Assembly (NCBI RefSeq): GCF_018271995.1
Contig: NZ_JAGUCO010000018.1
Coordinates: forward strand, 1 to 64,000
Direction: 5' to 3'
Source: Carboxylicivirga linearis
Lineage (GTDB): Bacteria > Bacteroidota > Bacteroidia > Bacteroidales > Marinilabiliaceae
DNA length: 64,000 nucleotides
Shown here: one piece after another, positions 6,893 to 53,938 of the stretch
Layout of the letters: every line of letters begins with the position of its first letter
Numbering within the stretch: position 1 is the first letter of the stretch
The notes under the pieces: model-generated
Databases searched by the model: none
The model's input: only the letters and a program-made list of their open reading frames with translations
Told to the model about the DNA's origin: nothing
Program-made: the position numbers and the translations under genes

Positions 6893-6921
6893 TGTTTTAT
6901 ATTTCTGCAGCCATCTTTGTT

Positions 6922-10276: not shown

Positions 10277-10280
10277 CTCT

Positions 10281-10481
10281 ATGATTCAGGAAATTCTAAC
10301 ATATCTGGTTGTAGCATGGGCCTTTTATAAGGTATTTATTTTCTTCTACCGAATATTTAAACCTGTTAAAGGTGGTTCGGTATGCGGACCTGCAGGTGCT
10401 TGCCCTTCCTGTGATGCCAAAACAGATTTATTTAAAGATATAAAGAAAGGCAGGTTTCCAACTTTGCTTGAAGAAAAATAA
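10281..10481 (+). CDS. FeoB-associated Cys-rich membrane protein
   Basis: A 66-residue protein: one N-terminal membrane helix (about 4-24), a basic hinge, then Cys-rich CGPAGACPSC, matching the FeoB-associated small protein family that follows feoB in many bacteria. The cysteines may handle iron at the cytoplasmic exit of FeoB; that is inference. I chose ATG 10281, 4 bases after the feoB stop, over an upstream overlapping ATG because the family begins with the hydrophobic helix. Confidence 0.85.
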   Translation: MIQEILTYLVVAWAFYKVFIFFYRIFKPVKGGSVCGPAGACPSCDAKTDLFKDIKKGRFPTLLEEK

Positions 10482-10492
10482 ACGTAAAAACA

Positions 10493-10522
10493 AAAGCCCG
10501 GTAAATTGAAACCGGGCTTTTT
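10493..10522. terminator. Bidirectional terminator between the feo operon and pepD
   Basis: A 10-bp perfect stem, AAAGCCCGGT (10493-10502) with ACCGGGCTTT (10511-10520), and T-run; it lies between convergent stop codons. Confidence 0.9.
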
Positions 10523-10524
10523 GC

Positions 10525-35668: not shown

Positions 35669-36397
35669 CTATTTTATAAACTTCTCTCGCTGTTGTAGGT
35701 TAAGTAAGCCCCATAACCCTGCTACGACCGATACTATCAGCCACGTTCGGATATGCTTTGCAACAATATTTGACCAAACAACTTCACTCATATCATTAGG
35801 TAAGTCAAAAGGATTTAAAAACAGATTCCAGGCACTATTACCTAAAAGTTCAACTAAAATCCAGGCTAAGAGACCAATAATTACCACCACTACAGCTGTT
35901 CCATTACCGTTCTTTACCACTGTGCTAAAAAAGAATCCCATCATACCAATAAAACCAACCGGAACCATCAATCGCAAAGTCATCTCCCATTTAGGCACAT
36001 TTATAATCAGAACACTACTTAGTGAAGCCATAATGAATATAAACCAGAACACAATAAAATAAGCAATTACCAAACGTAATAGCCATATTTTGTATCGATA
36101 ATTGGGTATACCAAACAGAATCTCCAGAATCCGGGCATCTTCATCATTTTGTATCCCGTATGATGTAGGAAAGAAAATCAATAAAAAGGCTGGAAACATC
36201 AACTGATAGTAAACCCCTTGAATACTTTCGCTATCGGATGTAAACAAATTGATTAGTGTAACCAGAAAATAAAAGATTAATGAAGCTCCCAGAAAGTAGA
36301 CAAATTTGTTCCCAAATACTACCTTTAGGTTATACCTTATAAAAGTGATGTAGGTTCCGCTTATCCCTTTTTTTAAACTATATTTTAAATTTTCCAT
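35669..36397 (-). CDS. ABC-2-type membrane permease, last gene of the efflux operon
   Basis: A 242-residue inner-membrane protein with six predicted helices (about 34-52, 67-85, 107-130, 140-160, 167-185, 215-233) and no ATPase motif: the size and layout of an ABC-2 permease half (NatB/GldF-like). It lies 43 bases downstream of the RND-ABC fusion gene, whose ATPase domain lacks an obvious own ABC permease; I infer that the two work together. No substrate can be named. Confidence 0.75.
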   Translation of the reverse strand: MENLKYSLKKGISGTYITFIRYNLKVVFGNKFVYFLGASLIFYFLVTLINLFTSDSESIQGVYYQLMFPAFLLIFFPTSYGIQNDEDARILEILFGIPNYRYKIWLLRLVIAYFIVFWFIFIMASLSSVLIINVPKWEMTLRLMVPVGFIGMMGFFFSTVVKNGNGTAVVVVIIGLLAWILVELLGNSAWNLFLNPFDLPNDMSEVVWSNIVAKHIRTWLIVSVVAGLWGLLNLQQREKFIK

Positions 36398-36440: not shown

Positions 36441-39400
36441 TTATTGAGCCTTTTGATTTAATTCATCATTTTTCAACAACCACATGTAGGCATCTTCTAA
36501 AACAGCTTGAACAGGTATGGCACTCTCTGTTGGTTTTTCTTTAGCTAAGCAGCGAACCCGAATATTATCACCGTCGCGCATGTGATGAACAATGGTAAAT
36601 TTCTTATTCACCTCTTCAAAATCACTTGCTATCACATCAAACTGCCATACTTTGTCCTTGGCAATATTTACCATCTCGTTAGGAACACCCCAATATTTGA
36701 GATCTCCACGCTTCATAACAGCCACCTGGTTACAAGAGCTTGAAATATCTTCAATGATATGGGTCGAAAATAATACCACACGGTTTTTACTCAGTTCCAC
36801 CAGCAAATTACGGAATCGGATACGCTCACGTGGATCCAAACCTGCAGTAGGCTCATCAACCACCAATATTTTAGGTAAGTGAAGTAAAATCATGGCAATA
36901 CCAATACGCTGCTTCATACCTCCTGAGAATGATCCGATCTTATCATCTTTTCGCTCCCACATATGTACCGACTTCAGCACATATTCTAACCGTTCTTTTC
37001 TTAAATCATCATTATTGATTCCTCTAAGCATCGCCTGATAGTCCAGAAACTCAAAGGCCGACATATTCTCATACGTTCCAAACTCCTGAGGTAAGTAACC
37101 AATTAAACCTTGCAGCTCTTCTCTCTTCTCTGCTGTATCAAAACCATTGATATAAACTTTACCATAACTCTGATCTAAAATACCGCAAATAATGCGCATT
37201 AAAGTAGTTTTACCGGCACCATTAGGTCCCAGCAAACCAATCATACCGGTTTTAATATCTAACGAAACTCCTTTTAAAGCTTTAAATGGTGTTTTTTCTT
37301 TGCCAATAAAAGGAATGCCTCTCAAAAACCTATAGTAACTTCTGCGCATACCGGCAAAACGTCCTGTCACTCGTTCTATATTGGTTCTTTCACGTTTTAA
37401 CTTGTTACCTGAAGCGATTAATGCCAATAACAGGTACCATATTAATGCAGTAGTAATAGCCGTTGACAAAGATTCCCAATGGAAATAATAAACTACTGAA
37501 GCAACCAAAGGATAACCATATTTGAAAACGAATAATATTCTTTTATCCCATTTAGCAGACGTTTCCGTTTGTCTGTTATACCTCCATAATAATGCAATTG
37601 CATCGTAAACAGCTTTTAAGATGAAGTAATTGATCATTGTGAATACCAGTCCCATGAATTTTGACTCGAGATACCACCAGGTGAAATATCCCATAAAAGC
37701 CAATAATGGCAATTGCCAAATCAACTTTTTCAGGCTTTCTTTCAAATCAACCTCTTTTTTCGATAATAGCTCTTTATGCTTGCCATCTCTGGCTTTTCTT
37801 TCACGGGTAAAACGCCCATCGCGATCATACACTTTTACCAGGTTACGAACCGTAATAGTAACTTCATCATCCTGAGCAATTAACTGGCTATTGGCCATTC
37901 GCAGTGATGAGCGTATAAAATATACCACAGCTGGTACACCAGCAAAAATCAACACATAATAAAGTAATTGCCAGGCAAATGAAACATCGGACCATGCATA
38001 AACAAACCAAATTCCTAAACCCCAGAAAAAGAAAATAACCAATTTCAATTTTACAGGCAAAGATCGGATCCATTCGAGTGAATGCTCAAAACCAAATGCA
38101 AAAGTTGGCATAAATACCAAAGTAAGTAAAGTACTGAATGCTAACCCTCCAACCACTGTTATAGCAAACGGAGCTCCTAAGATGCTTACATATTCTGACT
38201 TACCCATAGCCAGTGGCATCATGGCAATAATAGTGGTAATGGCAGTAATGGTAATAGGGCGAATACGTGAAATACCTGCTTGCATTAAGGCTCTGGCATG
38301 ACCATAACCTTCTTTACGCAGTTGTCGTGAATAATCGATTAAAAGAATTCCATTATTCACCACTACACCCAGCAGAATTAAGAAACCTATAAAACTATTG
38401 AAATTCATTAATGAATTACCGGTCAATACCAATGCCAGTAATGAACCAATGGCAGCTAAGGGTACTGAGAATAGCATCACCACTGGCGCGGTTAAGGATT
38501 CAAATACCGATGCCAAAATCATAAAAATAAGGATCAGTCCCACCATGGCCAGAAACTTATAATCAGCAAATACATCCTCTTCGTGAATAACATCAACCGA
38601 TACTGATGTTGGTAAAGGAATGGTTGCAACCAAATCATCTATCTGTTGACGAGCATCTTCTAATAATGTGTTTGATTCATTCACCTCATCAGCAAAACGA
38701 TAATAAACTTCAATTTGCTTTTCCTGATTGACTCTTAATATTTCAGAACGTCCCGATGCATAATTTATCTCGGAAAAATTGTGTAATGGAATAATGGTAT
38801 TACTTGCAGTAGTTACGTTAAGTTTCTGCAATTCCTCCATCGTTTTAGGAGGTATTTCTGTTTGCTGTGGGTCATCCAGCGTCTTCATTACAATGTCGTA
38901 AGTCTCGTTATTTACCTTCAGTTGACCACCGGAACTTACTTCTCCCCGAAACGTTGATAGTTCGGATAAAACATTTTGCGGAGAGACGTTAAATAAGCCC
39001 ATTAAATACGGATCCATATTTAAATGCACCTCTGGTCGATTATTGGAGGATGAAATATTGACCCTTTGCATATTATCAATATTATTTTCGAGGTAATATT
39101 TGATATCGTTGGCAACCATCAACATCTGATCGTAATCCTCTCCTTTAATCACTACTTTCTCTTCCTGTTCTCCCAGTCCCATCATCATCATCATGCCGGC
39201 TCCGGGGTTAGCCCCAAAACCGCCGCCACCGCCACCACCCATGGAGCTGGTTGAACTTTGAGTCAGGCTTATTTGACCTCCTCTAACATTGTTAATACGT
39301 TGTTGTATATCTTGTCTGATTTCAGGAATGGTTCTTTTAGCCACTCCTTTGTAGTCTTCAACCAATTTAATCGTTAATGAAGCTTCTTCGTCCTGCACAC

Positions 39401-41186
39401 GACTAATAACATCCTCTTTCTCACCCAGATCTTCCAAGCGTTTTTCAATCTCGCGCACTACAATATCCGTATTATCCAGTGTTGATCCGGACGACATATC
39501 AACCGAAATGTTAAATTCAGGTGTTTCTGCTTCTCTTGCACTGGTAATGCTAACTCCTACTGAAATTATCAGAACCATGAAAAACAACAGAATCACTGAT
39601 AAAATAGTGACAGCCGGCTTTCGTAATGTTGCTTTTAACAGCAAGATGTAATACTGAACGATACGATTATGTAACGATAATTTTTCTAAAGCTTCAATCT
39701 TATGCTTCATTATGCCCGACAAGAACAAGTGACTAAGCATTGGTATCAGTAGTAAAGCAACCAACAGTGACACTACAAGCGTTGAAACTATTGATACACT
39801 TACATGACGGGCTACCTCGCGAAACATTACATTCTCGGAAAACACAAAAGGTAAAAAGACAGATATGGTTGTTAAGGTAGCAGCTGCTACCGATCGCCAC
39901 ACCTCTTTGGTTCCTTTAATAACACTTTCATCATTCGAATGCTTACCCTTGGAAGCTACCCGATAGATGTTTTCCATCACCACCACACTGTTATCAAGTA
40001 ACATTCCAATGGCTAAAGCTAATCCAACCAATGTTAATACATTAATGGAAATGTTGGCGGCATAAAAGAAATTAAAAGCTCCGTAAACCGAAATCGGTAT
40101 TGATAACATTACCATTCCCACCAGCGGAATATTATTCAGGAATATCCAAAGAATAAACAAAGCCAAAATCCCTCCAATAATAGCCAGTTCAATGATACTA
40201 TCAAGGTTGCTTTCCATGGTTTCGGCTGAGTTGGTTTCTACTACCAACTCCAGTCCTTTGCTTTCATATTCCTGATTGATTCTATCAATTACTTTTAATG
40301 TATTCTTCGAAAGATCAATCAGGTTTACCTGCGAAGCCTTAGCCATACTGATGGAAACTGTCTCCAAACCATTAACTCGGCTATACGAATCTTCTTCTTT
40401 AACACCAAAATTTATAATGGCAATATCCTTCAGTAAAACAGGTCCCTCATCCTTAACAACAATATTTTTAATCTCATCTATATGGTTGTAGTCAGCCTCA
40501 GCAGTCACATAATACCTGCGTCCATCTTTTACTACCTCACCGGCAAAAACTTTTTCATTTTGCCCCTGTGTAATCATCCGGCTGATCTGCCCTGATGTCA
40601 AACCGTAGCTATCCAGTACCTCCTGGTTGAAAATAATCTCAACCGACTTCTGACGACCACCGCTCACCTGAACACTTGAAATACCATCAATACTCTGCAA
40701 TTGTTCAAGCAGATCCTGTTCTATAATATTTCGAATACGATCAACGCCACCTTCTCCACGGACCTGTATAGTCATAAACTGATTGTTCATCTGTTCCAAA
40801 TCAGCCTTAATAACCGTTGCCATCATATTATCAGGCAACACTGATGATGAACCTTCAATTTTTTCAACCAGCTTCAGATAGGCATATTTAGTATTCGTTT
40901 CTTTGGTCAGATAAACAAATAAGGTTGCACTACCCGGTCTGATGCGCGTTTCGATTTTTTCAATTCCTTCGAGAGTACTCACCAAACCTTCAATGGGAAT
41001 TACTCCCTCCTGCTCCATGTGCTTTGGGTCGAGCTGGGCTGTTGCCTGAACATTGACAAAAAGCATAGGTAGTTCGGTATTGGGTATCAGCTCAAACTTC
41101 AATTGTTTGTATGAGATAACACCCAACATGGTAAGTGCCACAAAGAGCATGCTGATCAGTACCTTCCTATTTATAATTTCTCTCAT
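36441..41186 (-). CDS. RND efflux permease fused to an ABC ATPase domain interrupted by a membrane insert
   Basis: A 1581-residue protein. Residues 1-1033 are an RND (HAE-type) permease: 12 helices, TM4 GMLLDNSVVVMEN with D398, TM10 VVVNNGILLIDYS, two periplasmic halves. A Gly7/Met5 stretch (642-670) is inserted in the second. Two extra helices follow (about 1048-1065, 1070-1091). A strand like the first beta strand of an ABC ATPase (ITVRNLVKVYDRDG, 1111-1124) comes next, then about 175 residues with four helices (about 1153-1260), and then the rest of the ATPase (1301-1581): Walker A 1320-1328, Q1367, signature SGGMKQ 1421-1426, Walker B D1444/E1445, H1476. All motifs are intact. The even number of extra helices keeps all ATPase parts cytoplasmic. 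Separate RND and ABC genes are the rule; this fusion is exceptional. Confidence 0.93.
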   Translation of the reverse strand: MREIINRKVLISMLFVALTMLGVISYKQLKFELIPNTELPMLFVNVQATAQLDPKHMEQEGVIPIEGLVSTLEGIEKIETRIRPGSATLFVYLTKETNTKYAYLKLVEKIEGSSSVLPDNMMATVIKADLEQMNNQFMTIQVRGEGGVDRIRNIIEQDLLEQLQSIDGISSVQVSGGRQKSVEIIFNQEVLDSYGLTSGQISRMITQGQNEKVFAGEVVKDGRRYYVTAEADYNHIDEIKNIVVKDEGPVLLKDIAIINFGVKEEDSYSRVNGLETVSISMAKASQVNLIDLSKNTLKVIDRINQEYESKGLELVVETNSAETMESNLDSIIELAIIGGILALFILWIFLNNIPLVGMVMLSIPISVYGAFNFFYAANISINVLTLVGLALAIGMLLDNSVVVMENIYRVASKGKHSNDESVIKGTKEVWRSVAAATLTTISVFLPFVFSENVMFREVARHVSVSIVSTLVVSLLVALLLIPMLSHLFLSGIMKHKIEALEKLSLHNRIVQYYILLLKATLRKPAVTILSVILLFFMVLIISVGVSITSAREAETPEFNISVDMSSGSTLDNTDIVVREIEKRLEDLGEKEDVISRVQDEEASLTIKLVEDYKGVAKRTIPEIRQDIQQRINNVRGGQISLTQSSTSSMGGGGGGGFGANPGAGMMMMMGLGEQEEKVVIKGEDYDQMLMVANDIKYYLENNIDNMQRVNISSSNNRPEVHLNMDPYLMGLFNVSPQNVLSELSTFRGEVSSGGQLKVNNETYDIVMKTLDDPQQTEIPPKTMEELQKLNVTTASNTIIPLHNFSEINYASGRSEILRVNQEKQIEVYYRFADEVNESNTLLEDARQQIDDLVATIPLPTSVSVDVIHEEDVFADYKFLAMVGLILIFMILASVFESLTAPVVMLFSVPLAAIGSLLALVLTGNSLMNFNSFIGFLILLGVVVNNGILLIDYSRQLRKEGYGHARALMQAGISRIRPITITAITTIIAMMPLAMGKSEYVSILGAPFAITVVGGLAFSTLLTLVFMPTFAFGFEHSLEWIRSLPVKLKLVIFFFWGLGIWFVYAWSDVSFAWQLLYYVLIFAGVPAVVYFIRSSLRMANSQLIAQDDEVTITVRNLVKVYDRDGRFTRERKARDGKHKELLSKKEVDLKESLKKLIWQLPLLAFMGYFTWWYLESKFMGLVFTMINYFILKAVYDAIALLWRYNRQTETSAKWDKRILFVFKYGYPLVASVVYYFHWESLSTAITTALIWYLLLALIASGNKLKRERTNIERVTGRFAGMRRSYYRFLRGIPFIGKEKTPFKALKGVSLDIKTGMIGLLGPNGAGKTTLMRIICGILDQSYGKVYINGFDTAEKREELQGLIGYLPQEFGTYENMSAFEFLDYQAMLRGINNDDLRKERLEYVLKSVHMWERKDDKIGSFSGGMKQRIGIAMILLHLPKILVVDEPTAGLDPRERIRFRNLLVELSKNRVVLFSTHIIEDISSSCNQVAVMKRGDLKYWGVPNEMVNIAKDKVWQFDVIASDFEEVNKKFTIVHHMRDGDNIRVRCLAKEKPTESAIPVQAVLEDAYMWLLKNDELNQKAQ

Positions 41187-41211: not shown

Positions 41212-44200
41212 TCAACTATGTTGTTTTCTGGCAAACAATCGGTCAAATACATGATACACACACGGAATAACAACCAGCGTTAGCAATGTAGACGTAACCA
41301 GTCCCCCAATAACAGCAATTGCCATTGGAGCGCGTAACGAGGCACTATCGCCAAAACCAATGGTTAAGGGGACTAATGCCAGTATGGTTGTTAAACTGGT
41401 CATTAAAATGGGTCTGATTCGTTGTTGGCCTGCCGCCACAATGGCTTCTTTTAACTCCATGCCCGATCGTTTGAACTGATTGATGGCATCAACCAGTATA
41501 ATGGAGTCATTTACTGCAATACCACCTAACATCACAATACCGATATAGGCCATAATGTTAAATGTATTACCCAGTAAAAAGAAGGCCCAAACAGCACCCA
41601 CACCTGCCAAAGGTATAGTCAGCAGAATGGTAAATGGATGAATTAACGACTCAAACTGAGAAGCCATTACCATGTACACCAACACAATAGACAATATTAA
41701 AGCAAATTGTAAGCTACCAAAGGCATCTTTTCGTCTTTGCTCCTGCCCCAGTACTTTAATGGTTGATGTTGGAGGAGCATCGAGTTGAGTAATTTTTGTT
41801 TCCAGCTCATTTACCAAATGATCAAACGGTATACGGTCGCTGACCATTCCTGTAATTTTTGCCACCCTCTTTTGATTATTACGAATTAACTCACGGGGTG
41901 CCTGACCAATACTTATTTTTGATACTTCAGAAAGAAAAACTTCTCTCTCTCCTGTAGAAACTTTTAAATCCTTCAATTCTTCCAAACGCACATCAGGTGT
42001 TTCAAGCTTAATACTGGTTAATTCCCCTTTCATTTCCATTGTTCCTCCATCTCTTGCCGACAAATAATCAGAAACGCTTGACATTATGGTACTCACATCT
42101 AAACCAAATATTCCGGCTCTAACCCTATCGATAACAATGTTAACTTCCGGAGCACCATCTTCAAACGAACTCTTAACATTGTAAACATCATTATCCTCGC
42201 GCAGTAATTCTGAAACCAAAGCCGATGCTTCTTCCAGATAATCTGAGTTTTCGTCCGAAACCTCGATTAATAAGGGTGCTTCATCGGTTCCTAATACTGT
42301 TTGTAAAGCCGATTGATCTTGTACATATCGCAACTCCACACCTTCTACTCCATCAAACAGTTGATTGATATGGCTCACTAAATCTGTAAAGGCAATATGA
42401 ACCTCATCTTTCAAAACCAGTTTTAAATAACCAGTATTTTCACCTTGCTCAGTTGAAGAAGTTGATTCGCTTGATTCAGGACCTGCATGCGTATAGATTG
42501 TCTTTAACTGATCACCAAAAGAACCTTTCACCATTTCTTCCATTTGCAGCAGAGTAGCATCGGTTCGGTTTAATGAAGTCCCGGCAGGCAAAACAGTTTC
42601 AACAGTTATTTCGTTTGATTGTGTCTCGGGCATAAATTCACTTCCTACCATAGGAATAACCAAAACTGTTAATACAACCAATGCAACACTACCAGCTATT
42701 ATCCACCCTTTCTTTTCAAGAACTCCGTTTAAAAACCTACCGTATGATTTAAATCCGGCTTCCTGCTCAATCACCTTTACTTCCTTCTTCTTTTTCCCTT
42801 TTAAGAAGAGATTACTCATTACCGGAATAACCAATAAGGCAACCACCAGAGATGATAGTAACGAGAATGCAACTGTCCAGGCCTGATCTTTAAATAACTC
42901 TCCTGATGCTCCCTGAATGTAAACAATGGGTAAAAACACCACAATGGTTGTAAGGGTTGATGCCACCAAGGCACCTGCCACTTCGCTGGTACCATCAATT
43001 GCTGCATCCTTTAATGGTATTCCCTGCTGCATCTTCCGGAAGATGTTTTCAACCACCACAATGGCATTATCAACCAACATTCCAGCACCTAAGGCCAGTC
43101 CTCCCAATGTCATAATATTAAGGGTAAGACCATTAAAATACATCAGATTAAAAGTGGCAATTATAGAGATTGGTATGGCTAAACTTACTATTAATGTAAC
43201 ACCAAAGCGACGAAGAAAAATAAACAACACAAATACTGCGAAGATAATACCTATAAGTGCACTTTCTTGCACTTCGCCAATTGCACTTTGTATGAATCTT
43301 CCCTGATTATTAATAACAACCAACTCATAAGAAGGTAATCGCTTTTGAATGGAAGCAAATGCTGTTTCAAGCTTCTCAACAGCTTCAACCGTATTAAATT
43401 TTGTCTCTTTATAAATAGAAACACCTAAGCAACGCTCTCCATTTAACCGAACGATACTTTCAGGGTCACGGTTTTGAAATCGTACCTGAGCAACATCCTT
43501 TAATAATATAGCTGATGTTGCTGTATTAGTAGCAGCAGTTGAAGTTGCGGTTGACGTATTTGATGTACCGGTTGTTTTAACCACCAGATTTCGTACATCA
43601 TCTAAATGGGTTAAAGCACTTAATCCTTTAATAATATATCGTTGGCCCATTTCTTCAATAGATCCACCTGATACATTTTGGTTAAAACTATTTATGGTAC
43701 TCAAAACCGATGACATGGTTAATCCGTTAACCTCTAGCAAACCCGGATCAACTACAACTAATACCTGGGCTTCTTCATCGCCCGATATTCGAACATCAGC
43801 AATTCCCTCCACTCTGATTAATTCATTACGAATATAGTTTTCAGCCACTTTTCGTAGCTCATTCATATCAGTAATTTCGTCGTTTCGGAATGCGGCTTTG
43901 ATTACTGGTGATGCATTAGGATCAAAACGTGAAATATTTAACTCTTCTATATCTTCATTCTGACTAACTGTTGTAAGGGCTTTCTGTAGATCTAAAAACG
44001 CCTCATCAATATCTTTACCCCAATCATATTCAACGGTAATAACAGCTGAACCAACTCTACTGACCGATGAAACATTGGTAACTCCACTTTGCCGTACCGA
44101 TAGTGCCTCTATCTGATCAACAAAACGCTTTTCTATTTCTTCGGGCGATCGCTCACCCGCATCCAGCTCAACATAAATGCGTGGATTTTGCATTTCAGGA

Positions 44201-44313
44201 AATAAATCCGTTCCCAAACGCGATAATGATATTATGCCCAACAAAATAGTGGCCAAAACAATCATTGCAACGGTGACCGGATAATTAACTGAGAATCGTG
44301 AAATGGCTCTCAT
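41212..44313 (-). CDS. RND efflux permease (HAE-1-like)
   Basis: A 1033-residue inner-membrane proton-driven exporter with the normal RND length and layout: TM1, first periplasmic loop, TM4 GMLVDNAIVVVENIF with the proton-relay Asp, second loop, TM10 IAVNDSIILVDAIN. Residues 247-268 are a Ser/Thr/Ala insert (start TGTSNTSTAT) not seen in the neighbouring RND paralogue. It lies 17 bases after the membrane-fusion gene and 25 before the RND-ABC fusion, so two RND subunits share one adaptor; they may form a mixed trimer, as MdtB-MdtC do. Confidence 0.95.
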   Translation of the reverse strand: MRAISRFSVNYPVTVAMIVLATILLGIISLSRLGTDLFPEMQNPRIYVELDAGERSPEEIEKRFVDQIEALSVRQSGVTNVSSVSRVGSAVITVEYDWGKDIDEAFLDLQKALTTVSQNEDIEELNISRFDPNASPVIKAAFRNDEITDMNELRKVAENYIRNELIRVEGIADVRISGDEEAQVLVVVDPGLLEVNGLTMSSVLSTINSFNQNVSGGSIEEMGQRYIIKGLSALTHLDDVRNLVVKTTGTSNTSTATSTAATNTATSAILLKDVAQVRFQNRDPESIVRLNGERCLGVSIYKETKFNTVEAVEKLETAFASIQKRLPSYELVVINNQGRFIQSAIGEVQESALIGIIFAVFVLFIFLRRFGVTLIVSLAIPISIIATFNLMYFNGLTLNIMTLGGLALGAGMLVDNAIVVVENIFRKMQQGIPLKDAAIDGTSEVAGALVASTLTTIVVFLPIVYIQGASGELFKDQAWTVAFSLLSSLVVALLVIPVMSNLFLKGKKKKEVKVIEQEAGFKSYGRFLNGVLEKKGWIIAGSVALVVLTVLVIPMVGSEFMPETQSNEITVETVLPAGTSLNRTDATLLQMEEMVKGSFGDQLKTIYTHAGPESSESTSSTEQGENTGYLKLVLKDEVHIAFTDLVSHINQLFDGVEGVELRYVQDQSALQTVLGTDEAPLLIEVSDENSDYLEEASALVSELLREDNDVYNVKSSFEDGAPEVNIVIDRVRAGIFGLDVSTIMSSVSDYLSARDGGTMEMKGELTSIKLETPDVRLEELKDLKVSTGEREVFLSEVSKISIGQAPRELIRNNQKRVAKITGMVSDRIPFDHLVNELETKITQLDAPPTSTIKVLGQEQRRKDAFGSLQFALILSIVLVYMVMASQFESLIHPFTILLTIPLAGVGAVWAFFLLGNTFNIMAYIGIVMLGGIAVNDSIILVDAINQFKRSGMELKEAIVAAGQQRIRPILMTSLTTILALVPLTIGFGDSASLRAPMAIAVIGGLVTSTLLTLVVIPCVYHVFDRLFARKQHS

Positions 44314-44330: not shown

Positions 44331-45395
44331 TTACTTTTTAACGATGTTAATCTTTGATCGATTTCTCAAGGTCTCAAAGCCCTTCACAATCAGTCGGTCA
44401 TTTTCCTGCAATTCTTTTCCTAGCACCTCTACTTCGTTTATAGTTTCAATACCTGTGCGGATATATATTTTCTCTGCTAATTCTTTCTTAGCTACATAAA
44501 CCAATTTACGGTTTCCTTCTGTTAAAATTACATCCTTTGGAATAACTAAAGCACTATCGCGATGGTCCACAACAATTTCAGCCTTAACAAACATACCTGG
44601 CTTTAACAAAGCATCTTTATTTTCCACTTTTATACGTCCTTTAAAAGTACGGGCCTCCACATCAATGGCTGGTGACAATTCAGAGATACGTCCCTTTAAG
44701 GTGTCATCAGGTAATGAATAATTCATAATATTTACCGGTTGCCCCATCTGTACATGCCCCATTAGGTTTTCAGGCATACTTAAATCCATTACCATGGTGG
44801 TATATTCCATCATACTCATTATTTCGGTACCACTTTCAACCCTGATGCCGGGAGTAAAATAAGGCAGATCAGTAATTACACCTGTAAAAGGAGCTCTCAC
44901 ATCCATTTTGCCCATTGCAATCTGAGCATTCTCATACGACTGTTTAGCAGAAAGAAGTGTATTCTCTGAATTAACCAGTTCTCGTTTGGTTACACCGCCT
45001 TTTTCATACAAGGCTTGTTGCTTGGTATATTCCATCTCAGAAATTTCCATTTCCAGCTTAGTACCTTCAATATTAGTATTGTTTTCGTACTCCTTATCCT
45101 CCAGCTTAATGATGAGTTGTCCTTTTTTAACAAGATCACCCATCTTATATTTCTGTCCTGTTGCCGGATTGGTTTGTAAAAGGTAATTACCTGCCACCTC
45201 GGAGGTAACTGTTACATCCATTGTTGGAGTAATAGAACCTGTTGTAACCAAAGTTTGCTCAATGGGTTTATATTTTACTTCTTCAACTGATACATTAACG
45301 GCAACATCCGTATCAAAGCTCGAAGATTCGTTTCTGCAAGACGACAGTGCAGCCAGTGTGGCAGCAACTAAAAGAGTATGTTGTAATATTTTCAT
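44331..45395 (-). CDS. RND periplasmic adaptor (membrane fusion protein), lipoprotein
   Basis: A 354-residue adaptor. A lipoprotein signal ends LSSC (Cys20). Then the order is: N-terminal beta part, lipoyl half (VTSEVAGNYLL), helical hairpin (about 95-145, short for the family), second lipoyl half (MDVRAPFTGVITDL), beta-barrel with SLPDDTLKGRISELSP, and the membrane-proximal domain. It would bridge the RND pumps to the TolC-like channel. The spacing to both neighbours is 17-18 bases. Confidence 0.93.
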   Translation of the reverse strand: MKILQHTLLVAATLAALSSCRNESSSFDTDVAVNVSVEEVKYKPIEQTLVTTGSITPTMDVTVTSEVAGNYLLQTNPATGQKYKMGDLVKKGQLIIKLEDKEYENNTNIEGTKLEMEISEMEYTKQQALYEKGGVTKRELVNSENTLLSAKQSYENAQIAMGKMDVRAPFTGVITDLPYFTPGIRVESGTEIMSMMEYTTMVMDLSMPENLMGHVQMGQPVNIMNYSLPDDTLKGRISELSPAIDVEARTFKGRIKVENKDALLKPGMFVKAEIVVDHRDSALVIPKDVILTEGNRKLVYVAKKELAEKIYIRTGIETINEVEVLGKELQENDRLIVKGFETLRNRSKINIVKK

Positions 45396-45413: not shown

Positions 45414-46901
45414 TTATTGTATGGTTTCGTAATTAATAACATCAGGCATAATGCTTCTTTGATTTTCAAAATCAAATAGTGTTTGAAGCTTCATATTCAA
45501 CAATTCAAGTTTGTAACTGATCAGAGCATCAATTTTATTATTCTTAGCCTGAGTTAGCTGATTTTGCACCAGATTCAAATCCATACTGGTTAAATCACCA
45601 TTTTGATATTTCTCCAGATTAATTTCGTATGTCAGCTGGGCATTTTCTTCATTCTTCCTGGCTATTTCAATCTGCTTCAGATAATTTTTTAGATTACGTT
45701 CTATTTGGCGCACAGATAGAACAATGTTCTTTTTTTCATCCAACAGATTGTATTCATTAGTTTCCTGAGCCAATCGAGCTGCTTCCATACGTGCTTTTTT
45801 CTCTCCCCAGTCCCACAACGGCACTTCCAAAGTAAACTGTACATCCTGGTTATCATTCCTGTTTTGCCGGTCGTAGATGTTATTCACATTTTCAGCATTA
45901 CCGAACAACCCCACCTGAACAGCCAAATTACCTTTAAACTCATTGGTAGCATTAGTGGTAATCAGATCAAACAACCCCATTTCAACATCAATTTCTCTTT
46001 GTCGAATTTCCATTCTGTTCTCAAGTGCAAAACCAGTTGCTTTCTGAAGGTCAATATCTACCGGTAAAACAGAAACTTCAGCAACAACCATTATCTCTTC
46101 CGAAAAGTCCATGCCTAACATTTGTTTGAAGTTATCTTTGATATTATCCAGATCTACTTCGTTGTTTTGCACAGTTGATTCGCTTGACATCATATCCAAC
46201 TCAGCCTGAAGCATTTCTTCTTTTGCAGTTAAACCTGCTTCTACTTTATTTTTAATGATTTCGTAACTCTTTTTTCTATTGGCCAGTTCTTCACGCGATG
46301 TAATCAACTGCATTTGAGCCTGATAAATCTGATAAAAGTACTGCGTTATCTGTCGTTCAACATTTAAGGCCTGAAGCGCATAATTTAATTGAGAGTTTTC
46401 GTAATTAAACTCAATCTCTTTGTACTCCATTTTACGCCTGTTGTAGGTAAAAAGAGGTTGTTCCAGGCGTAGATTCAAACTGTTGGTAAAACCCGTAAAC
46501 GGATCGAAATTAATATCATCACGTTTATTCGTTTGCCAGCCAAAGTTGTTATTTAATGAAACAACTCCATCGGTAAATAAAATGGGTTGACTTACACTAA
46601 ACGCACCTGAAGTAGTGAAATTTTCATCGTTGTACCAGGTTTGATTCGACTGGTCGTAGTTTCTGCTATTACTATACTGAAAAGGTGATAAATCCAATCG
46701 AAAATTTGATTTCAAAGATGCTTTTTGAGCATTGAGCAACTCTCGATATCTTTCCAGATTATATCGTGCTCTAACAATATCAGGACTTTGTTTCAGAGCT
46801 TCTTCCACCGATTGCTCCAAAGTCATCAGGCGTTGAGCCTCCACATTTATGGCAAACATCGAAAAGAAAAGCACAAACAATCCAATTATACTTTTATTCA
46901 T
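45414..46901 (-). CDS. TolC-family outer-membrane efflux channel
   Basis: A 495-residue protein with signal peptide (residues 1-23, cut after VEAQ) and two OEP repeats of long helices separated by beta-barrel strands, with the typical start LTLEQSVEEAL-like (MTLEQSVEEALKQSPDI). It is the exit duct for the adaptor/RND pumps encoded just downstream. No lipid-attachment Cys, unlike OprM. It is between the ABC permease-fusion gene and the adaptor gene. Confidence 0.93.
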   Translation of the reverse strand: MNKSIIGLFVLFFSMFAINVEAQRLMTLEQSVEEALKQSPDIVRARYNLERYRELLNAQKASLKSNFRLDLSPFQYSNSRNYDQSNQTWYNDENFTTSGAFSVSQPILFTDGVVSLNNNFGWQTNKRDDINFDPFTGFTNSLNLRLEQPLFTYNRRKMEYKEIEFNYENSQLNYALQALNVERQITQYFYQIYQAQMQLITSREELANRKKSYEIIKNKVEAGLTAKEEMLQAELDMMSSESTVQNNEVDLDNIKDNFKQMLGMDFSEEIMVVAEVSVLPVDIDLQKATGFALENRMEIRQREIDVEMGLFDLITTNATNEFKGNLAVQVGLFGNAENVNNIYDRQNRNDNQDVQFTLEVPLWDWGEKKARMEAARLAQETNEYNLLDEKKNIVLSVRQIERNLKNYLKQIEIARKNEENAQLTYEINLEKYQNGDLTSMDLNLVQNQLTQAKNNKIDALISYKLELLNMKLQTLFDFENQRSIMPDVINYETIQ

Positions 46902-46919: not shown

Positions 46920-49900
46920 TTATTTTTTTACCCATTTAACTGCATCAGCTATAACATATTCGCTTTTTGTAAAGTCAGAAAGCTTTACTGTGGCTGCTCC
47001 TTCAGAGAAGTAATAGTCTCCGAGATATAACCAACCATTATTATCTTGAGTGACTTTAATTTCAACTTCATCCTCGCCGTCATCACTATTCACTGTATAA
47101 TGAAAATCGCGTTCATACCCTCGGTCTCCACGGCCACGGAAACGTCCCCTTATATCAGGAACATATGCATATACAGCATAATTCCCCGGAGCCTCAATCT
47201 GTCCGGTCCAGCTAACATATCCTTCTCCTGTTCCTTTACGTTTGTAATAACCCGACTTGAGGTACTCTCCAAAAAATTCCTCTCCAGCAACAGGCGACCA
47301 TTTTACCGGAGTATTCCAAAATCGAATTCTTCCGTAGGTTTCGTTTTCATCTTCTTCATTCTGTCGACTTAGCCACCAATCTTTAATGGTTCTACTTTCG
47401 CCGGTATTTACAAACGAGCATCCGTCATCCTCATTATCAACAATTACCTCAAATTTTTCGGCATACCTCAGTTTTTTGCTGGAAGGTTGTAATCCTTCGA
47501 AAAAATCAACAACCCGTTTATCTTTAATTACAGCATTTATATTTAACCTCTGATTAGAAGGTATATTTCGGGCTAAATAGGTATTAACTGATACATCGCG
47601 TGGCACCTCATCTAAAATAAATCCGATATCAACCGTTTCGCCTTTCTTTATAAGATAGCTCTTAGCATTGGACGACTGATCCATTGAAAACTCAGAACGA
47701 AAACGACCTCTGCCTCCTCTTCTTTCTCCTTCACGAATGGTTAAACCTACAATTCCATCAATATCGCCTTTATTGGCAACCGGTACTTTCACAAAATAGC
47801 GTATGCGATTACCTTCTTTAATCTCCCAAACATCAACATTACCAAATAAAAAGGCTGGTGCATTATCATCTTTTAACCAATTATTGTACAACTCATTAAA
47901 ATCAGATTCCGATAATTGATCCATTAAAGATGTAAATTCTTCAACCTCGATATTTTTAAATTGAGTGTTCTTAACAATTTCATTTAATTGACGGTCGAAG
48001 GTTACTGCATTGGTATTAACTTTAAAACTTGATATCAATTGATTTCCTTTGGAAGCAAACACATTACCCAACACATTCACATCTTCCTCCTCAATCAAAT
48101 CATTTAAACTTCTGTCCTTCAGCTTCAAAATAACTTCATCATTGGTACTTAATCCTCCAAATCCACCTGGGACATTGGAACTTAAACGTTCGTGAAGATA
48201 ATTTTCAAGGGCTATTGTTAACAATGGATAACCATCTTCTTCAATTGAATTGGCATAAGTAAAGTATAGTGGAAAAACCTGATATCTCCCCCAGTTTTCA
48301 ACACTGCGTTCTCCAGACTGTCGTCTTCCAAAGAAAAAACGTCGTGGGCGTATAAAATTATCTCCGATGTAACTCTTAAAGATTTCAATTTGTACATCTT
48401 TCTCCGACATTTCTTCATTCCGGTTGCGACCCCGGTTCTCTGTTCTTCTCTTCTGATTTTTTATATCATTTTGCCAGTTACCGCCTCCACATTCAGGAAA
48501 AAACACCATTTCTGGCATAACTTCTTCGGTTGATAGCGACCAGTTTCGCAGGTAACTATAGAAGTTTATGGGAGACTCAACAATTGAGAATTTATCAAAA
48601 GGGTAACTTACCGCTAATTGCCTCTCAAAATCATTTTTTATATTTTGGATCAACACCGAAGCTGTATCTTCTAATTCGGTAAAGAAAGGTTTAAAAAATG
48701 TGTGTTTAGGATGGTAGTACAAACTAAACTCCACACTATCAACCATTGTACTTACTTTCTCAAAAGTACCAATTACCACACTATATGCATTCAGAGCCTG
48801 CTGAGAAGTAAAAGACCACCTACCTTCTTCTTCGTCTTTTGAATTTCCTTGCGATATGACAGTCAAACCAGGTTTTGATTGCACATCAAGATCCATTCGA
48901 ACAAACGGATAACGTGTCCAGTATAAATCAGAAGCTACTACAGGATACCAGTTCGCTTCGCGTGTAAGCAAGACATAATTACTGGTGATAAAGCTAAATT
49001 GCTTATTGGCAATGATTGGATCGAGACGATTTAATGATAATAAGGTTTCGTCGTCAACCTCAGGAAACATGGCTATGTCGTTAATAGTCCCTTCATAGTT
49101 AAGTTCAACTGTGAAGCTTCCTTTTACAATGGAGTTCTTTTTTACAGTTAACAGGTGTGCCTGACGTTCAAATGTCACATCTTTCCCATCAATACTAACT
49201 TTTTTGACTTTTAAACCTGGATTAATGGCTAATACCAGATCTCCGTTTTTCCCATCTTTCAACCCCACCTCTAACTGAGCTATTACATCAATCTTATCTG
49301 CTTTATGAATTAAATTGATGTGATAATTATTGATGTTATAGGCTGACGGTTTTAGTTGTTGATTTAACCTGGAAACTTCTGCTCTTAAATTTACATTTTG
49401 ATTATCTCCAATAGCTTTAAAAGACATCATAGTTAATGCCCCAAAGCCAGTAATAAGCATACCTGCCAATAATGTATATTTGGCAAATTTTTGTTGTTCC
49501 AGTCGGGGTAAACGCCACACGGTTGCCAGAATAAAAAAGATACCTAACAATAAAAAGGAAGACCTAACTAATATTAAATCTAACTCGTTACCAAAACCTG
49601 TAAAATCGGAACGCATAAATGGCATATAGAAACCAAGTACATCCATTAAACCAAAAAACTTGTTTCTCAAATAAAATAAGGATAAGGCAACAAGTCCTAA
49701 TAAAACCACAAATGTAATTGCCTGGTTTCGTATGAGCGTCATCACAAAAAAGGATAAACCCAAAATAAATACCAGCGTTGGTAAGGAAATTAATAAAGGA
49801 TAAAGAATAAATGAAGACCAGTTTACAGTTGTATCACTTCCAATTAATGAGAAAAGGATGCCTAATGCCATTACAATAGCATTTAAAACAACAAAAACTT

Positions 49901-50246
49901 TAAGAATACCTAGTGTCTTTCCGGTAACATATTCAATATTAGACATACTCCTAACATAAAAAGCTTCTGTGGTATCCAGCTTTTTGTCTCTGCCTAAAAA
50001 ATCTGCCGATAAGAAAATGGCAATTATGGATTGGGCAATATTTAAAATCCACATATTAAAATAAGGCACACCGGACGGGATGAGACGTCCTGGCCACGAA
50101 CCTTCAGCAATACCTGCCACCGCAAACATGTTAAACATTAAAAGAAAAAATAAGGCTATTGCAGAAAATATTCTGAAGAACCAGCTCCTGAGCAGTGTTT
50201 TAGACTCGAAACGAGCTATCGTTCTAACATTAAATAGTGAGATCAT
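46920..50246 (-). CDS. ABC-2 permease fused to degenerate M1-peptidase-like and golvesin-like domains
   Basis: A 1108-residue protein. Residues 1-275 have about seven helices of an ABC-2 permease (e.g. 24-44, 62-82, 112-135, 148-170, 177-197, 225-243, 257-275). Residues about 300-900 follow the M1 aminopeptidase layout (N-terminal beta domain, then a catalytic-like part with EVMPEMVFFPE), but no HEXXH zinc motif occurs anywhere, so it should be inactive as a peptidase. An Arg/Asn/Glu-rich insert lies at 598-648. Residues about 934-1108 (IVDNEDDGCSF to YVIADAVKWV) resemble the golvesin C-terminal, carbohydrate-binding-like domain. Its ATG overlaps the stop of the ATPase gene by 4 bases, marking them as one ABC transporter. 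Confidence 0.85.
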   Translation of the reverse strand: MISLFNVRTIARFESKTLLRSWFFRIFSAIALFFLLMFNMFAVAGIAEGSWPGRLIPSGVPYFNMWILNIAQSIIAIFLSADFLGRDKKLDTTEAFYVRSMSNIEYVTGKTLGILKVFVVLNAIVMALGILFSLIGSDTTVNWSSFILYPLLISLPTLVFILGLSFFVMTLIRNQAITFVVLLGLVALSLFYLRNKFFGLMDVLGFYMPFMRSDFTGFGNELDLILVRSSFLLLGIFFILATVWRLPRLEQQKFAKYTLLAGMLITGFGALTMMSFKAIGDNQNVNLRAEVSRLNQQLKPSAYNINNYHINLIHKADKIDVIAQLEVGLKDGKNGDLVLAINPGLKVKKVSIDGKDVTFERQAHLLTVKKNSIVKGSFTVELNYEGTINDIAMFPEVDDETLLSLNRLDPIIANKQFSFITSNYVLLTREANWYPVVASDLYWTRYPFVRMDLDVQSKPGLTVISQGNSKDEEEGRWSFTSQQALNAYSVVIGTFEKVSTMVDSVEFSLYYHPKHTFFKPFFTELEDTASVLIQNIKNDFERQLAVSYPFDKFSIVESPINFYSYLRNWSLSTEEVMPEMVFFPECGGGNWQNDIKNQKRRTENRGRNRNEEMSEKDVQIEIFKSYIGDNFIRPRRFFFGRRQSGERSVENWGRYQVFPLYFTYANSIEEDGYPLLTIALENYLHERLSSNVPGGFGGLSTNDEVILKLKDRSLNDLIEEEDVNVLGNVFASKGNQLISSFKVNTNAVTFDRQLNEIVKNTQFKNIEVEEFTSLMDQLSESDFNELYNNWLKDDNAPAFLFGNVDVWEIKEGNRIRYFVKVPVANKGDIDGIVGLTIREGERRGGRGRFRSEFSMDQSSNAKSYLIKKGETVDIGFILDEVPRDVSVNTYLARNIPSNQRLNINAVIKDKRVVDFFEGLQPSSKKLRYAEKFEVIVDNEDDGCSFVNTGESRTIKDWWLSRQNEEDENETYGRIRFWNTPVKWSPVAGEEFFGEYLKSGYYKRKGTGEGYVSWTGQIEAPGNYAVYAYVPDIRGRFRGRGDRGYERDFHYTVNSDDGEDEVEIKVTQDNNGWLYLGDYYFSEGAATVKLSDFTKSEYVIADAVKWVKK

Positions 50247-51139
50247 TCTAATTCAATTTTGGATTTAGTCAGGTATTCCATAAAGTACACATAGGCATGT
50301 TCTAAATTGGGCTGAACTTCCGATGCTTTCCAGCCATTGGGTTTATCTGCTACAAACTCCACCTCATATCCGGCAGGATCGGGGATTGAAGTAATAACCG
50401 GAAATGTTTCACTAATGCGTTTCATTTCATCAAAAGTGACTGAAGTTTTAAATACATGACCTTCACTCTGCTTAATAAATTGTTCGGGTGAACCCGTAAA
50501 ATGCACTTCTCCGGAATTTAATAACGCCATTTGACTACAGGTAGATGAAATATCACCTACAATATGTGTAGAAAGGATAATAATAACCTCTTTCTGACTA
50601 AGATTAGAAAGTATATTCCTGAATCGTATACGCTCTTCGGGGTCCAATCCGGTTGTAGGTTCATCAACAATAATGATTTTAGGATCACCTATTAAAGCCT
50701 GTGCTATTCCAAGACGACGCTTCATACCTCCGGAAAGCTTATTGGCAAATCGGTTTCGAACATCAAATAAACCAACTTGTTCAAGTAAATCATCTACAGC
50801 TGATAAGCGCTGTTTTTTACTTTTTATTCCCGCCAAAGAAGCGGCATAATCGAGAAATTCCCAAGTACGTAGTTTAGCAAAAAAACGAAAATCCTGAGGC
50901 AGATATCCAAGGTACGAGCGTACTTCTTTACGATTCTTAGATAATGGCATACCATTTACAAACACCTCTCCATGAGTAGGCTTTTGCAAAGTAACCAGTA
51001 TTCGCATTAATGTTGATTTTCCGGCTCCATTGGGTCCTAATAAACCAAACATTCCCGGGTTAATCTCAAGATTAACTCGGTTGAGTGCTCTGAAATCATT
51101 TTTATAAACCTGACTCAGATCTTTAATTTCTATATTCAA
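50243..51139 (-). CDS. ABC transporter ATPase, first gene of the efflux operon
   Basis: A 298-residue ATPase of the NatA/GldA type: IEIKDLSQVY start, Walker A LGPNGAGKST (34-43), Q-loop YLPQDF, signature LSGGMKRR, Walker B IIIVDEP, switch STHI. A C-terminal domain (about 215-298) ends NLEHAYVYFMEYL. It is clearly paralogous to the ATPase part of the RND fusion, with the same C-terminal region. The start codon appears to be TTG: no ATG/GTG is in frame upstream, and the next ATG is at residue 30, inside the fold. It partners with the permease fusion that overlaps it. Confidence 0.92.
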   Translation of the reverse strand: MNIEIKDLSQVYKNDFRALNRVNLEINPGMFGLLGPNGAGKSTLMRILVTLQKPTHGEVFVNGMPLSKNRKEVRSYLGYLPQDFRFFAKLRTWEFLDYAASLAGIKSKKQRLSAVDDLLEQVGLFDVRNRFANKLSGGMKRRLGIAQALIGDPKIIIVDEPTTGLDPEERIRFRNILSNLSQKEVIIILSTHIVGDISSTCSQMALLNSGEVHFTGSPEQFIKQSEGHVFKTSVTFDEMKRISETFPVITSIPDPAGYEVEFVADKPNGWKASEVQPNLEHAYVYFMEYLTKSKIELE

Positions 51140-51460: not shown

Positions 51461-52360
51461 TTAACGTCTGCCATGCCTTCCTTTTCTACCAAATCCCCTG
51501 CTGTCAAAGGCCATCTTTTGTTCATCTGTCATTTGATTACGAACTTCCATTTTATGCTCTGCCCTAAGCTTTGCTAATTGAAGTTTTATCTCCGACTGTT
51601 CAGTTATTGTTTTATCAACTTGTTTTAAATTGATGTTTTTTCCGGTTGTTTGAGTTTTTAACTGAGCATTTAATTCATTCAGTTTATTTTTAAGAGTCTG
51701 TTCTTTTTTCAATAACTGTAAACGCGATTGATCCATAAACTCTTTTTGAGCATCTGTTAAATCCAAAGCTGTCAGGTTTCGTCTCTGCCCTGTTCCTCTG
51801 CCTTGACCAGCTTGATTTCTCTGACCTCTTCCCTGCCCCTGGCTTTTTCCATAGCCTTGACCATTGCCTCGTTGACCATTACCTCTTCCAAAGCTATTTC
51901 TATCGCAACCTGGACATTGACCTTGGTTTCCTTTACCCAAACCATAGCCTTGCCCCATTTGACCTTTGGGGCCCTTTTTACGTGCATCAAACAAAATAAC
52001 CTGATCGTCAGTTAGGTTGGCCTTTACATCCTGAAAATGTCTGATTCTTTCTTTTTGAAGGTTCGTTTGAATTGTATTAATAGAAGCTAAACATTCAAAC
52101 AACGCATCTTTATCAACAGGATCTGTTGTTTCAAGCGTATGTTTTCTGGTAATCAATTCATTTAACTGATTGTGATCCGCTTTTGTTTTTTGATAAAATG
52201 CAACTCGTAGTTCATCCATTTTATCTTTCTGTTCTTGCGTTAAATCATCCTTTAAAACACAATCTTGTCGGTTAAAAGCTTGTTTTCGTTGCTGCTGGGC
52301 GGTTGCTGATACAGCTACCATAGCTAAAGCTATCAATCCCAAAAATAATTTTGTTTTCAT
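51461..52360 (-). CDS. Secreted protein with two Spy/CpxP-like halves
   Basis: A 299-residue periplasmic protein with signal peptide (residues 1-21, cut after ATAQ). Residues 33-127 and 197-287 are two helical halves, each with Spy/CpxP-type LTxxQ motifs at both ends (LTQEQ/LTDDQ and LTDAQ/MTDEQ). They are joined by a 70-residue Gly/Gln/Arg/Asn-rich linker with CPGC at 149-152. Spy-family proteins are periplasmic chaperones or metal/stress sensors. The start is ATG 52360; nine extra codons upstream would precede the signal peptide. It follows the smaller Spy-like gene by 97 bases. Confidence 0.8.
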   Translation of the reverse strand: MKTKLFLGLIALAMVAVSATAQQQRKQAFNRQDCVLKDDLTQEQKDKMDELRVAFYQKTKADHNQLNELITRKHTLETTDPVDKDALFECLASINTIQTNLQKERIRHFQDVKANLTDDQVILFDARKKGPKGQMGQGYGLGKGNQGQCPGCDRNSFGRGNGQRGNGQGYGKSQGQGRGQRNQAGQGRGTGQRRNLTALDLTDAQKEFMDQSRLQLLKKEQTLKNKLNELNAQLKTQTTGKNINLKQVDKTITEQSEIKLQLAKLRAEHKMEVRNQMTDEQKMAFDSRGFGRKGRHGRR

Positions 52361-52457
52361 CTTTAAAATTCTTTCAATTTTTGACATAATTTCCCCATTT
52401 AGCCAATTGACAGATCGGCTATTAATTCTGAATCAATAATTTAATAATGATTAAATA

Positions 52458-52964
52458 CTAACGAGGTCCTCTTCCTCTTCGATGTCTTCCGGGAGGCTTT
52501 TCCATCCAATGGCGGAAGGTTTGATCCAATTTCTCTCTTTGGTCTTCGTTTCTGCAAACAGAACGAACTTTTCTGTAATGATTAAAGTTCAAAAACTCTA
52601 TTTCCTTCTGCAATTCAGCTATGCTATTAATATTATCATGTACTACAGCCGAATCACTTGACTTGGTAAAAGTTTGATTCATTAAACCTTCTTTCAAACT
52701 GTCTATTTGCTTTTGATAAATAAAAACGTCTTTAAGATGTTCATTACGTAATCGTTCAAATTCATCAAATTGTGCATCATCCAATTCCAGTTTTTGCATA
52801 AAGCGCTGCTTCCACTGGGCCTTTATTTTTTCTTTGTTTTTATTCTCTAATTGCCCCGTTTGAGAACTATTGCCTGAGTTGGTTAACCAGAGGCTTAAAA
52901 CAACCAGGTTACCTACAAAAAACACTGCCAGAATAATCCAACATATTTTACAACTCCTGCTCAT
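52458..52964 (-). CDS. Membrane-anchored Spy/CpxP-like (heavy-metal sensor-like) protein
   Basis: A 168-residue protein: a short Cys-containing cytoplasmic start (SCKIC), a membrane helix (about 7-29), then a helical periplasmic domain with LDDAQFDEFERLR and a second DQREKLDQTFRHW motif, as in the periplasmic heavy-metal-sensor/CpxP superfamily. The C-terminus is Arg/Gly-rich. Its start is 2 bases after the stop of the putative anti-sigma gene, so the two are coupled and may interact in the periplasm. Confidence 0.8.
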   Translation of the reverse strand: MSRSCKICWIILAVFFVGNLVVLSLWLTNSGNSSQTGQLENKNKEKIKAQWKQRFMQKLELDDAQFDEFERLRNEHLKDVFIYQKQIDSLKEGLMNQTFTKSSDSAVVHDNINSIAELQKEIEFLNFNHYRKVRSVCRNEDQREKLDQTFRHWMEKPPGRHRRGRGPR

Positions 52965-52966
52965 AA

Positions 52967-53311
52967 CTATTTTGTTTTATCCGAAGATGCTAAAAGTTCA
53001 ATATCATAGTACACCGACCAACTACTTTCATCGCTGTTTTCATAAACACTTGTCCATTCATCAATAACCTGATTTTGGGCAGAAGTGTTAATTTGCTGCA
53101 TTACCAGAAACAAATTACCAACTAACATCAAAAATGCTAAAGAGGCTGCAATGTTAACCATGTATTTTAAATAAGGATTTGAAGGAGTAATTTTTTCCAC
53201 CTTATTCATCACCTGATCAACAAAATCAACACTAATTCTCATGTTTGAATCAACCAGAGGTGTGTTAATTATGGAATCAATCCTATTACTATGTTTATTA
53301 TTATCTTTCAT
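52967..53311 (-). CDS. Putative anti-sigma factor, single membrane span
   Basis: A 114-residue protein: cytoplasmic N-terminal about 46 residues with a helix (VDFVDQVMNKVEKI), one membrane helix (about 47-67), and a short periplasmic tail. Size, topology and place right after an ECF sigma gene suggest an anti-sigma factor. It has no zinc-binding His/Cys motif, and no family name is certain. Confidence 0.65.
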   Translation of the reverse strand: MKDNNKHSNRIDSIINTPLVDSNMRISVDFVDQVMNKVEKITPSNPYLKYMVNIAASLAFLMLVGNLFLVMQQINTSAQNQVIDEWTSVYENSDESSWSVYYDIELLASSDKTK

Positions 53312-53362
53312 CTCCGTCCTTTCATTATATTTGACGTCATCTATTTTTTTTTCCTGCGCTTT

Positions 53363-53938
53363 TTAAAGAATTTCCTGTTTTTGCTGCATAAGAATTTCTT
53401 TCAATTTCTTTTTAGCCCTCACCAACAGCGACTCAACCGATCCTTCTGAAACACTCATTATTTCTGCAACTTCCTTTTGAGGTAACTCATCAAGCTTAGA
53501 CAAACTCAAGGCAACTCTTTGCCTCTCGGGAAGCTTATCCATAGCCATCAATAAAATTCTTTTGCGCTCTTCCAGTTCCAATTCCTGACTTACATCATCA
53601 GAATCAACAACCGATAAGTTTGCCAACTCAGCATTTTCCATGGTAGACAACACCCCGTATCCTCTCTTTTTTCGCTTCTTCTGTCGTAAATAATCCAATG
53701 ATTTATTAACAGCCAAACGATACAACCAGGTTGATAAGCTGGCCTCCTCTCTATAACTGGAAACCGACTTGAAGACTTCAACAAAAACTTCTTGTGCTAC
53801 ATCTTCTGCGTCTACTAAATGATTAACAAATGACATACAGATATGAATCACCCGTTGATGATGAATAACCACCAACTGCCGGAATGCATCTTTATTCCCC
53901 TCTTTAACCTGTTTAATTAATAATCTATCGTCAATCAT
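53363..53938 (-). CDS. ECF RNA polymerase sigma factor (RpoE-like)
   Basis: A 191-residue sigma-70 factor with region 2 (about 25-92, DVAQEVFVEVFKSV then WLYRLAVNKSLDYLR) and region 4 (about 130-185, LPERQRVALSLSKLDELPQKEVAEIM). There is no region 3. It heads the four-gene unit with a putative anti-sigma and two Spy-like proteins, which is the arrangement of envelope-stress regulators. It may also transcribe the efflux operon further down; that is inference. Confidence 0.93.
   Translation of the reverse strand: MIDDRLLIKQVKEGNKDAFRQLVVIHHQRVIHICMSFVNHLVDAEDVAQEVFVEVFKSVSSYREEASLSTWLYRLAVNKSLDYLRQKKRKKRGYGVLSTMENAELANLSVVDSDDVSQELELEERKRILLMAMDKLPERQRVALSLSKLDELPQKEVAEIMSVSEGSVESLLVRAKKKLKEILMQQKQEIL

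Follow-up and report, generated by a model that had tools for sequence, protein, structure and literature searches.

The 64,000-nucleotide stretch of DNA analysed here (the window; positions 1 to 64,000 of contig NZ_JAGUCO010000018.1 of Carboxylicivirga linearis, assembly GCF_018271995.1) carries on its minus strand a gene that joins a resistance-nodulation-division (RND) permease to an ATP-binding cassette (ABC) ATPase whose fold is split by membrane helices. As an earlier note made from the sequence had claimed, positions 36441-41186 form a single uninterrupted open frame of 1581 codons. Its first part, a full RND permease that we call RND2 (residues 1-1033; 38088-41186, minus strand), matches Pfam ACR_tran (PF00873) over residues 4-1029 at E 6e-150, full-length at profile positions 5-1016 of 1021, with MdtB as its closest solved sequence relative, and ABC_tran (PF00005) follows at residues 1304-1448 with E 3e-28, the domain architecture that the note expected. 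NCBIfam places RND permease models on the first part and GldA/DrrA-type ATPase models on the second, the 25 listed of 187 matches all lying under the curated cut-offs. The genome itself holds many RND and ABC genes, and among the 69 matches listed there no other covers both parts in one frame. The fused gene is a true chimera.

Is the ATPase intact? Walker A (1320-1328), the signature (1421-1426), Walker B (1440-1446) and H1476 lie where the note put them, as do ITVRNLVKVYDRDG from residue 1111 and FKALKGV from 1301. The catalytic set of an ABC ATPase runs from the A-loop aromatic through Walker A, the Q-loop, the signature, the Walker B Glu and the D-loop to the H-loop, and the residues at these sites in the single chain (Y1120, G1320, K1326, Q1367, S1421, G1422, G1423, D1444, E1445, D1451 and H1476) are each invariant, 78/78, in an alignment (A3) of the window with 77 of 80 related loci.

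The note also held that the ATPase fold is interrupted after its first strand, and an AlphaFold2 model of residues 1034-1581 (mean pLDDT 87.3, pTM 0.73) agrees. It predicts two long helices between the RND part and the first strand, at about 1045-1065 and 1070-1099 (residues about 1045-1099; 37890-38054, minus strand), where hydropathy gives one broad peak; a strand at 1111-1120; and then helices only, up to the next strand at 1301-1311. The first strand, which carries Tyr1120 (residues 1111-1124; 37815-37856, minus strand), is located by motif position, model, structural alignment and conservation. In VIA-align the model overlays free ABC ATPases in rows that start at model residues 71-77, with 1vpl superposed over 235 of 238 residues at 1.7 Å, and because the overlay runs from the first residues of the free ATPases onward, strand 1111-1120 is, in the model, the ATPase's own first strand; its packing onto the sheet, as the note had proposed, is read from these alignment ranges and not from contacts. 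The rest of the ATPase, with Pfam ABC_tran and most of the invariant catalytic residues, occupies residues 1301-1581 (36444-37286, minus strand).

The insert between the two pieces (residues about 1121-1300, some 180 residues; 37287-37826, minus strand) contains four helices that we take as membrane spans, at about 1158-1172, 1176-1204, 1208-1237 and 1240-1266, together with shorter or flanking ones, so the modelled helix counts, two before the strand and four in the insert, match those of the note. Alignment A5 takes in 77 of 79 inserts. Another alignment, read by eye, shows how far the inserts vary: two relatives (L206, L207) have 110-residue inserts with two membrane helices, the first pair being absent, another (L211) has a long Gly/Ser/Asp-rich stretch ahead of the first insert helix, and a diverged branch (L208-L210) retains the strand, the Tyr and a 190-residue insert. 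Because helix number changes by pairs, the ATPase would stay in the cytoplasm despite this variation, which supports the cytoplasmic placement of all its parts that the note had deduced. Pfam run over 78 members gave no consistent family for the insert, with scattered weak matches in at most four members each, and the insert was never folded or searched alone.

The same order of domains recurs widely. A search of 100 genomes, the window's own included, gave matches at E 1e-100 or better in 38. By our count from the list these are, besides the own genome, all 13 others of the genus, 19 of the family's other 46 genomes and 5 of 40 from the order. The fused gene occupies one stop-free frame in 29 of the 30 kin loci opened (28 of 29 without the own locus); the exception (L024, genome G013) shows a contig break as well as an in-frame stop. 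A second collection, drawn from a scan of genome contigs and comprising the best 80 of 580 relatives, has the RND part, insert and ATPase sharing a frame in 78 of 80 loci, the other two starting at a contig edge, and the 64 frames that start within their contig measure 1564-1600 amino acids stop to stop; at L068, next to a run of N, part of the RND start is in another frame. Record titles among these 80 include Bacteroides faecis, Tannerella forsythia, Parabacteroides, Marivirga, Saprospiraceae and Cyclobacteriaceae, as well as metagenome-assembled genomes (MAGs) titled KSB1, Calditrichota, Chlorobiota and Krumholzibacteriia, names that may be wrong.

Profiles of the insert were matched in at least 31 of 55 genomes of the family, at least 35 of 247 of the order (one, G372, doubtful) and at least 7 of 392 of the phylum (one, G320, doubtful), and a narrower profile (A2) in at least 3 of 295 genomes of the class; these are lower bounds, a handful of candidates per genome having been scored. 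Apart from the two doubtful cases and seven shorter frames (in G008, G013, G052, G081, G783, G865 and G923, of which the one in G013, L024, was opened and a few may be broken or cut), the matches lie in frames of 1515-1640 amino acids. No unfused form was found among the insert-profile matches of the family, order, class and phylum searches. One candidate, a frame of 1021 amino acids in G073, was rejected as its contig ends within the gene. A mobile origin found no trace either in plasmids at E 1e-100, where nothing matched, or in viral contigs, which yielded free ATPases only and nothing for the insert.

The fusion is the sixth of seven genes on one strand. Ahead of it stand a free ABC ATPase (50243-51139, Pfam), PERM1108, an ABC-2-like permease (46920-50246), a TolC-like outer membrane channel (45414-46901, OEP), a periplasmic adaptor of the MFP type (44331-45395, HlyD_D23 and HlyD_3) and a second RND permease, RND1 (41212-44313, ACR_tran), and after it comes PERM242, an ABC-2-type permease (35669-36397), all on the minus strand; inner pump, adaptor and TolC-like channel, the genes of a tripartite efflux system, are thus encoded together. 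By script, PERM242 lies directly downstream of the fusion in 77 of 78 loci with room for it, RND1 precedes the fusion in 62 of 63, and the order TolC-adaptor-RND1-fusion-PERM242 holds in 55 of 58, where two misses (L051, L075) exceed only the script's distance limit, their order being intact, and L112 is a true exception. At this last locus, in a Dysgonamonadaceae MAG, the fused gene (6869-11629) stands alone between polysaccharide-biosynthesis and aldolase-family genes, with a golvesin-domain frame further upstream. All seven genes occur in order in 11 of 12 regions from separate genomes, though in two of them the complete free ATPase is found in an adjoining stretch; in the remaining region (G073) the contig ends too early. 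Alignments A6 and A7 cover 10 of 11 regions. The fusion is real, because the odd joint and its six partner genes are conserved across many Bacteroidota.

This linkage extends to the diverged branch (three regions from two genomes), where RND2 is 28% and the ATPase 44% identical and several of the genes are at 20-34%: PERM1108, adaptor, RND1, fusion, PERM242 and TolC stand in this order in 3/3, and the free ATPase lies ahead of the set in both regions that were extended, so that all seven kinds of part are kept. Two of these copies (L208, L209) share one bin (G819, listed contamination 7), with TolC shifted to the end of the set. Among 296 phylum genomes PERM242 is strong in four, besides a weak partial match in G440, and PERM1108 occurs in the same four; all four carry the fusion according to the 392-genome phylum search, whose overlap with the 296 was not checked. 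The Bacteroides thetaiotaomicron genes BT2685-2689, guessed to be an orthologous operon, could not be tied to the set, and neither could BT0297-0300.

Upstream of the free ATPase, at 51461-53938 of the window (minus strand), are genes for an ECF sigma factor, for a small protein that only its position likens to an anti-sigma factor, and for two periplasmic proteins, of which the first matches Metal_resist and LTXXQ and the second, weakly, Metal_resist. These genes recur in full in G001 and G004 and partly in G043 and G028, and are absent from the other stretches fetched; because they were found only there, envelope-stress control of the set may be local to the kin group. Another genome of the genus (G012) has a tyrosine recombinase-like frame, identified by eye, beside the set (L156 1430-2641, minus strand), and no sigma or Spy match in the 3.4 kb fetched upstream.

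What would the fused ATPase drive? The model of PERM242 overlays NosY and ABCG permeases in VIA-align and is a plain permease of the ABC-2 fold with six membrane helices by our own count and no large periplasmic domain; alignment A4 covers 72 of 77 PERM242 copies. Because this small permease with an ABC-2 fold lies directly downstream, PERM242 is a likely partner for the fused ATPase. PERM1108 combines an ABC-2-like membrane part with a large periplasmic part of weak Peptidase_M1 likeness and a golvesin C-terminal domain, Pfam finding Golvesin_C in 11/11, ABC2_membrane_2 in 5/11 and Peptidase_M1 weakly in 3/11 of its sequences. In a tree of 54 sequences the fused and the free ATPases each form one group and the two groups join as sisters (98/96), 27 further own-genome ATPases falling outside; near-identical pieces and matches under 170 residues were dropped, loci of 30 of 54 own-genome matches were used, and the program warned of several long branches among the outsiders. 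With the catalytic sites of the fused ATPase intact, a heterodimer of fused and free ATPase would be an attractive idea.

The RND parts bear on the energy source. Across the RND2 family, gapped rows excluded, D398 is kept in 67/67, position 399 is Asn in 63/67 and position 944 is Asn in 78/78, where MdtF has Asp, Asp and Lys; we take these sites to be the two acidic residues of TM4 and the Lys of TM10 that make up the AcrB-type proton relay. RND2 thus keeps the TM4 Asp but lacks the second acidic residue and the Lys of TM10. This pattern is also that of RND1, and its Asp-Asn part recurs in at least one further RND frame of the own genome (L007, cut at the locus end). Because the AcrB-type relay residues are incomplete, we file the fused protein by its sequence among RND permeases and not among AcrB-type drug/proton antiporters; protons may drive the pump along another path.

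Starting from the computed fusion and its conservation, from intact ATPase motifs and a split fold, from PERM242 with its ABC-2 fold and from the gene linkage, the best reading, which we hold with a little more belief than doubt, is a tripartite RND pump with an ABC-2 exporter tethered to it, in which substrate is handed from ATP-driven to proton-driven export; partnerships and contacts, coupling, oligomer and stoichiometry, direction, hand-over and substrate are what we infer. The seven components would form one export machine, in which RND1 and RND2 would combine into a mixed RND pump that is completed by the adaptor and the TolC-like channel. The ATPase that ends the RND2 chain would be an ordinary working ABC-2-type ATPase with PERM242 as partner, both probably pairing with the free ATPase and PERM1108 as a heterodimer, and the two pre-strand helices and the helix insert would anchor it in the membrane beside the RND trimer. 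An ATP-driven step would carry a substrate, probably a hydrophobic one, out of the inner leaflet into the outer leaflet or the periplasm, where the RND pump would pick it up and export it through the channel. RND pumps are trimers and ABC transporters dimers, and this unlike symmetry speaks against such a machine; a 2:1 mixed RND trimer, the stoichiometry reportedly proposed in work on MdtBC, would reconcile the two, with two fused chains per trimer supplying one ATPase dimer.

Other observations weigh on the same side as the symmetry. The AcrB-type relay is incomplete in both RND parts, and one fusion (L112) has no RND1, adaptor, TolC or PERM242 nearby. Foldseek returned no row under E 0.001 for PERM242, its fold match being that of VIA-align; the outsiders of the ATPase tree are the own genome's other ATPases only; and since the profiles of PERM242 and the membrane part of PERM1108 do not match (hhalign probability 0.2), the permease heterodimer is not supported by homology.

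The fusion could instead be a tether and nothing else, fixing the place or ratio of an ABC-2 transporter and an RND pump that do separate jobs. We find this unlikely, if well worth keeping in mind: both halves look complete and no sequence feature examined indicates a hand-over, but all seven kinds of part stay linked even in the branch at 28-44% identity, suggesting one function. That the ATPase directly drives or resets the RND cycle, giving one pump that runs on ATP and protons, appears distinctly improbable; the single chain and the relay of RND1 and RND2, not of AcrB type, speak for it, but an ABC-2 permease adjoins the fused ATPase and L007, an RND frame elsewhere in the genome, shares the Asp-Asn pattern. 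Of the two forms between which the earlier note had left the choice open, a dual-energy exporter and a tethered ABC transporter, the tethered one is favoured by the ABC-2 permease next to the fusion and by the pairing of a free ATPase with a permease. FtsEX-like or LolCDE-like systems offer a parallel for an ATPase that, on binding ATP, would gate or assemble the complex of adaptor and channel and would move no substrate; the long periplasmic part of the possible partner PERM1108 would suit such a role, but PERM242 models as a plain six-helix permease without a large periplasmic domain, and we give the idea very little credence. Virtually no weight is left for an artefact of assembly or a decaying gene. 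The in-frame stop and contig break of L024 and a few MAG loci with split neighbouring genes or a run of N (L053, L087, L102, L068) point that way, but the frame shift or misassembly that the note had named as a danger is ruled out by the same frame recurring across loci and in genomes across the phylum, including the single-contig genome G001, and conservation has already refuted this reading.

How does the proposed export machine compare with known ones? It resembles heteromeric RND pumps of the MdtBC/AcrB (HAE) type in its full ACR_tran permease, in MdtB as best solved match and in its two RND genes with adaptor and TolC, but differs in the C-terminal ABC ATPase with membrane insert and in the incomplete relay. 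With ABC-2 exporters (NosFY, ABCG, ABCA, GldA/DrrA-type) it shares an ATPase that matches ABCA chains and GldA/DrrA models and a permease, PERM242, like those of NosFY and ABCG, but here the ATPase is the tail of an RND permease, and membrane helices interrupt its fold behind the first strand. MacAB-TolC likewise brings an ATPase, an adaptor and TolC together in a single export system, whereas MacB has its ATPase on its own permease and no RND part. A CzcA-type fusion in the own genome (L006 1462-5808, contig C148), a 1448-residue RND permease with a C-terminal outer-membrane-factor (OEP) domain, also joins an RND permease to another transport part, but the partner is OEP and not an ABC ATPase. 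No description of an RND::ABC ATPase fusion was found among the open-access papers covered, subscription papers lying outside this scope, nor does one appear in passages of the main review on tripartite systems (PMC8277102), one of which treats MacB; the note's view that such a chain is undescribed stands within the open-access literature searched and is not established beyond it.

RND and ABC exporters count as two distinct classes, each with its own energy source. Here a conserved covalent link joins them, in what appears to be a combined export machine of an undescribed kind. More tentatively, and with more doubt than belief, we speculate that one machine couples ATP hydrolysis and proton flow, in which two ABC-2 half-systems, one covalently tied to an RND subunit, would feed the tripartite RND pump, and the insert would sense the state of one motor or pass it on to the other. 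To judge by record titles, carriers of the fusion range from marine Bacteroidota to Bacteroides, Parabacteroides and Tannerella of the gut and mouth. The system lets one ask whether and how two motors cooperate, and how an ABC ATPase folds around a membrane insert, and genes named simply RND permease in such genomes may carry a second motor.
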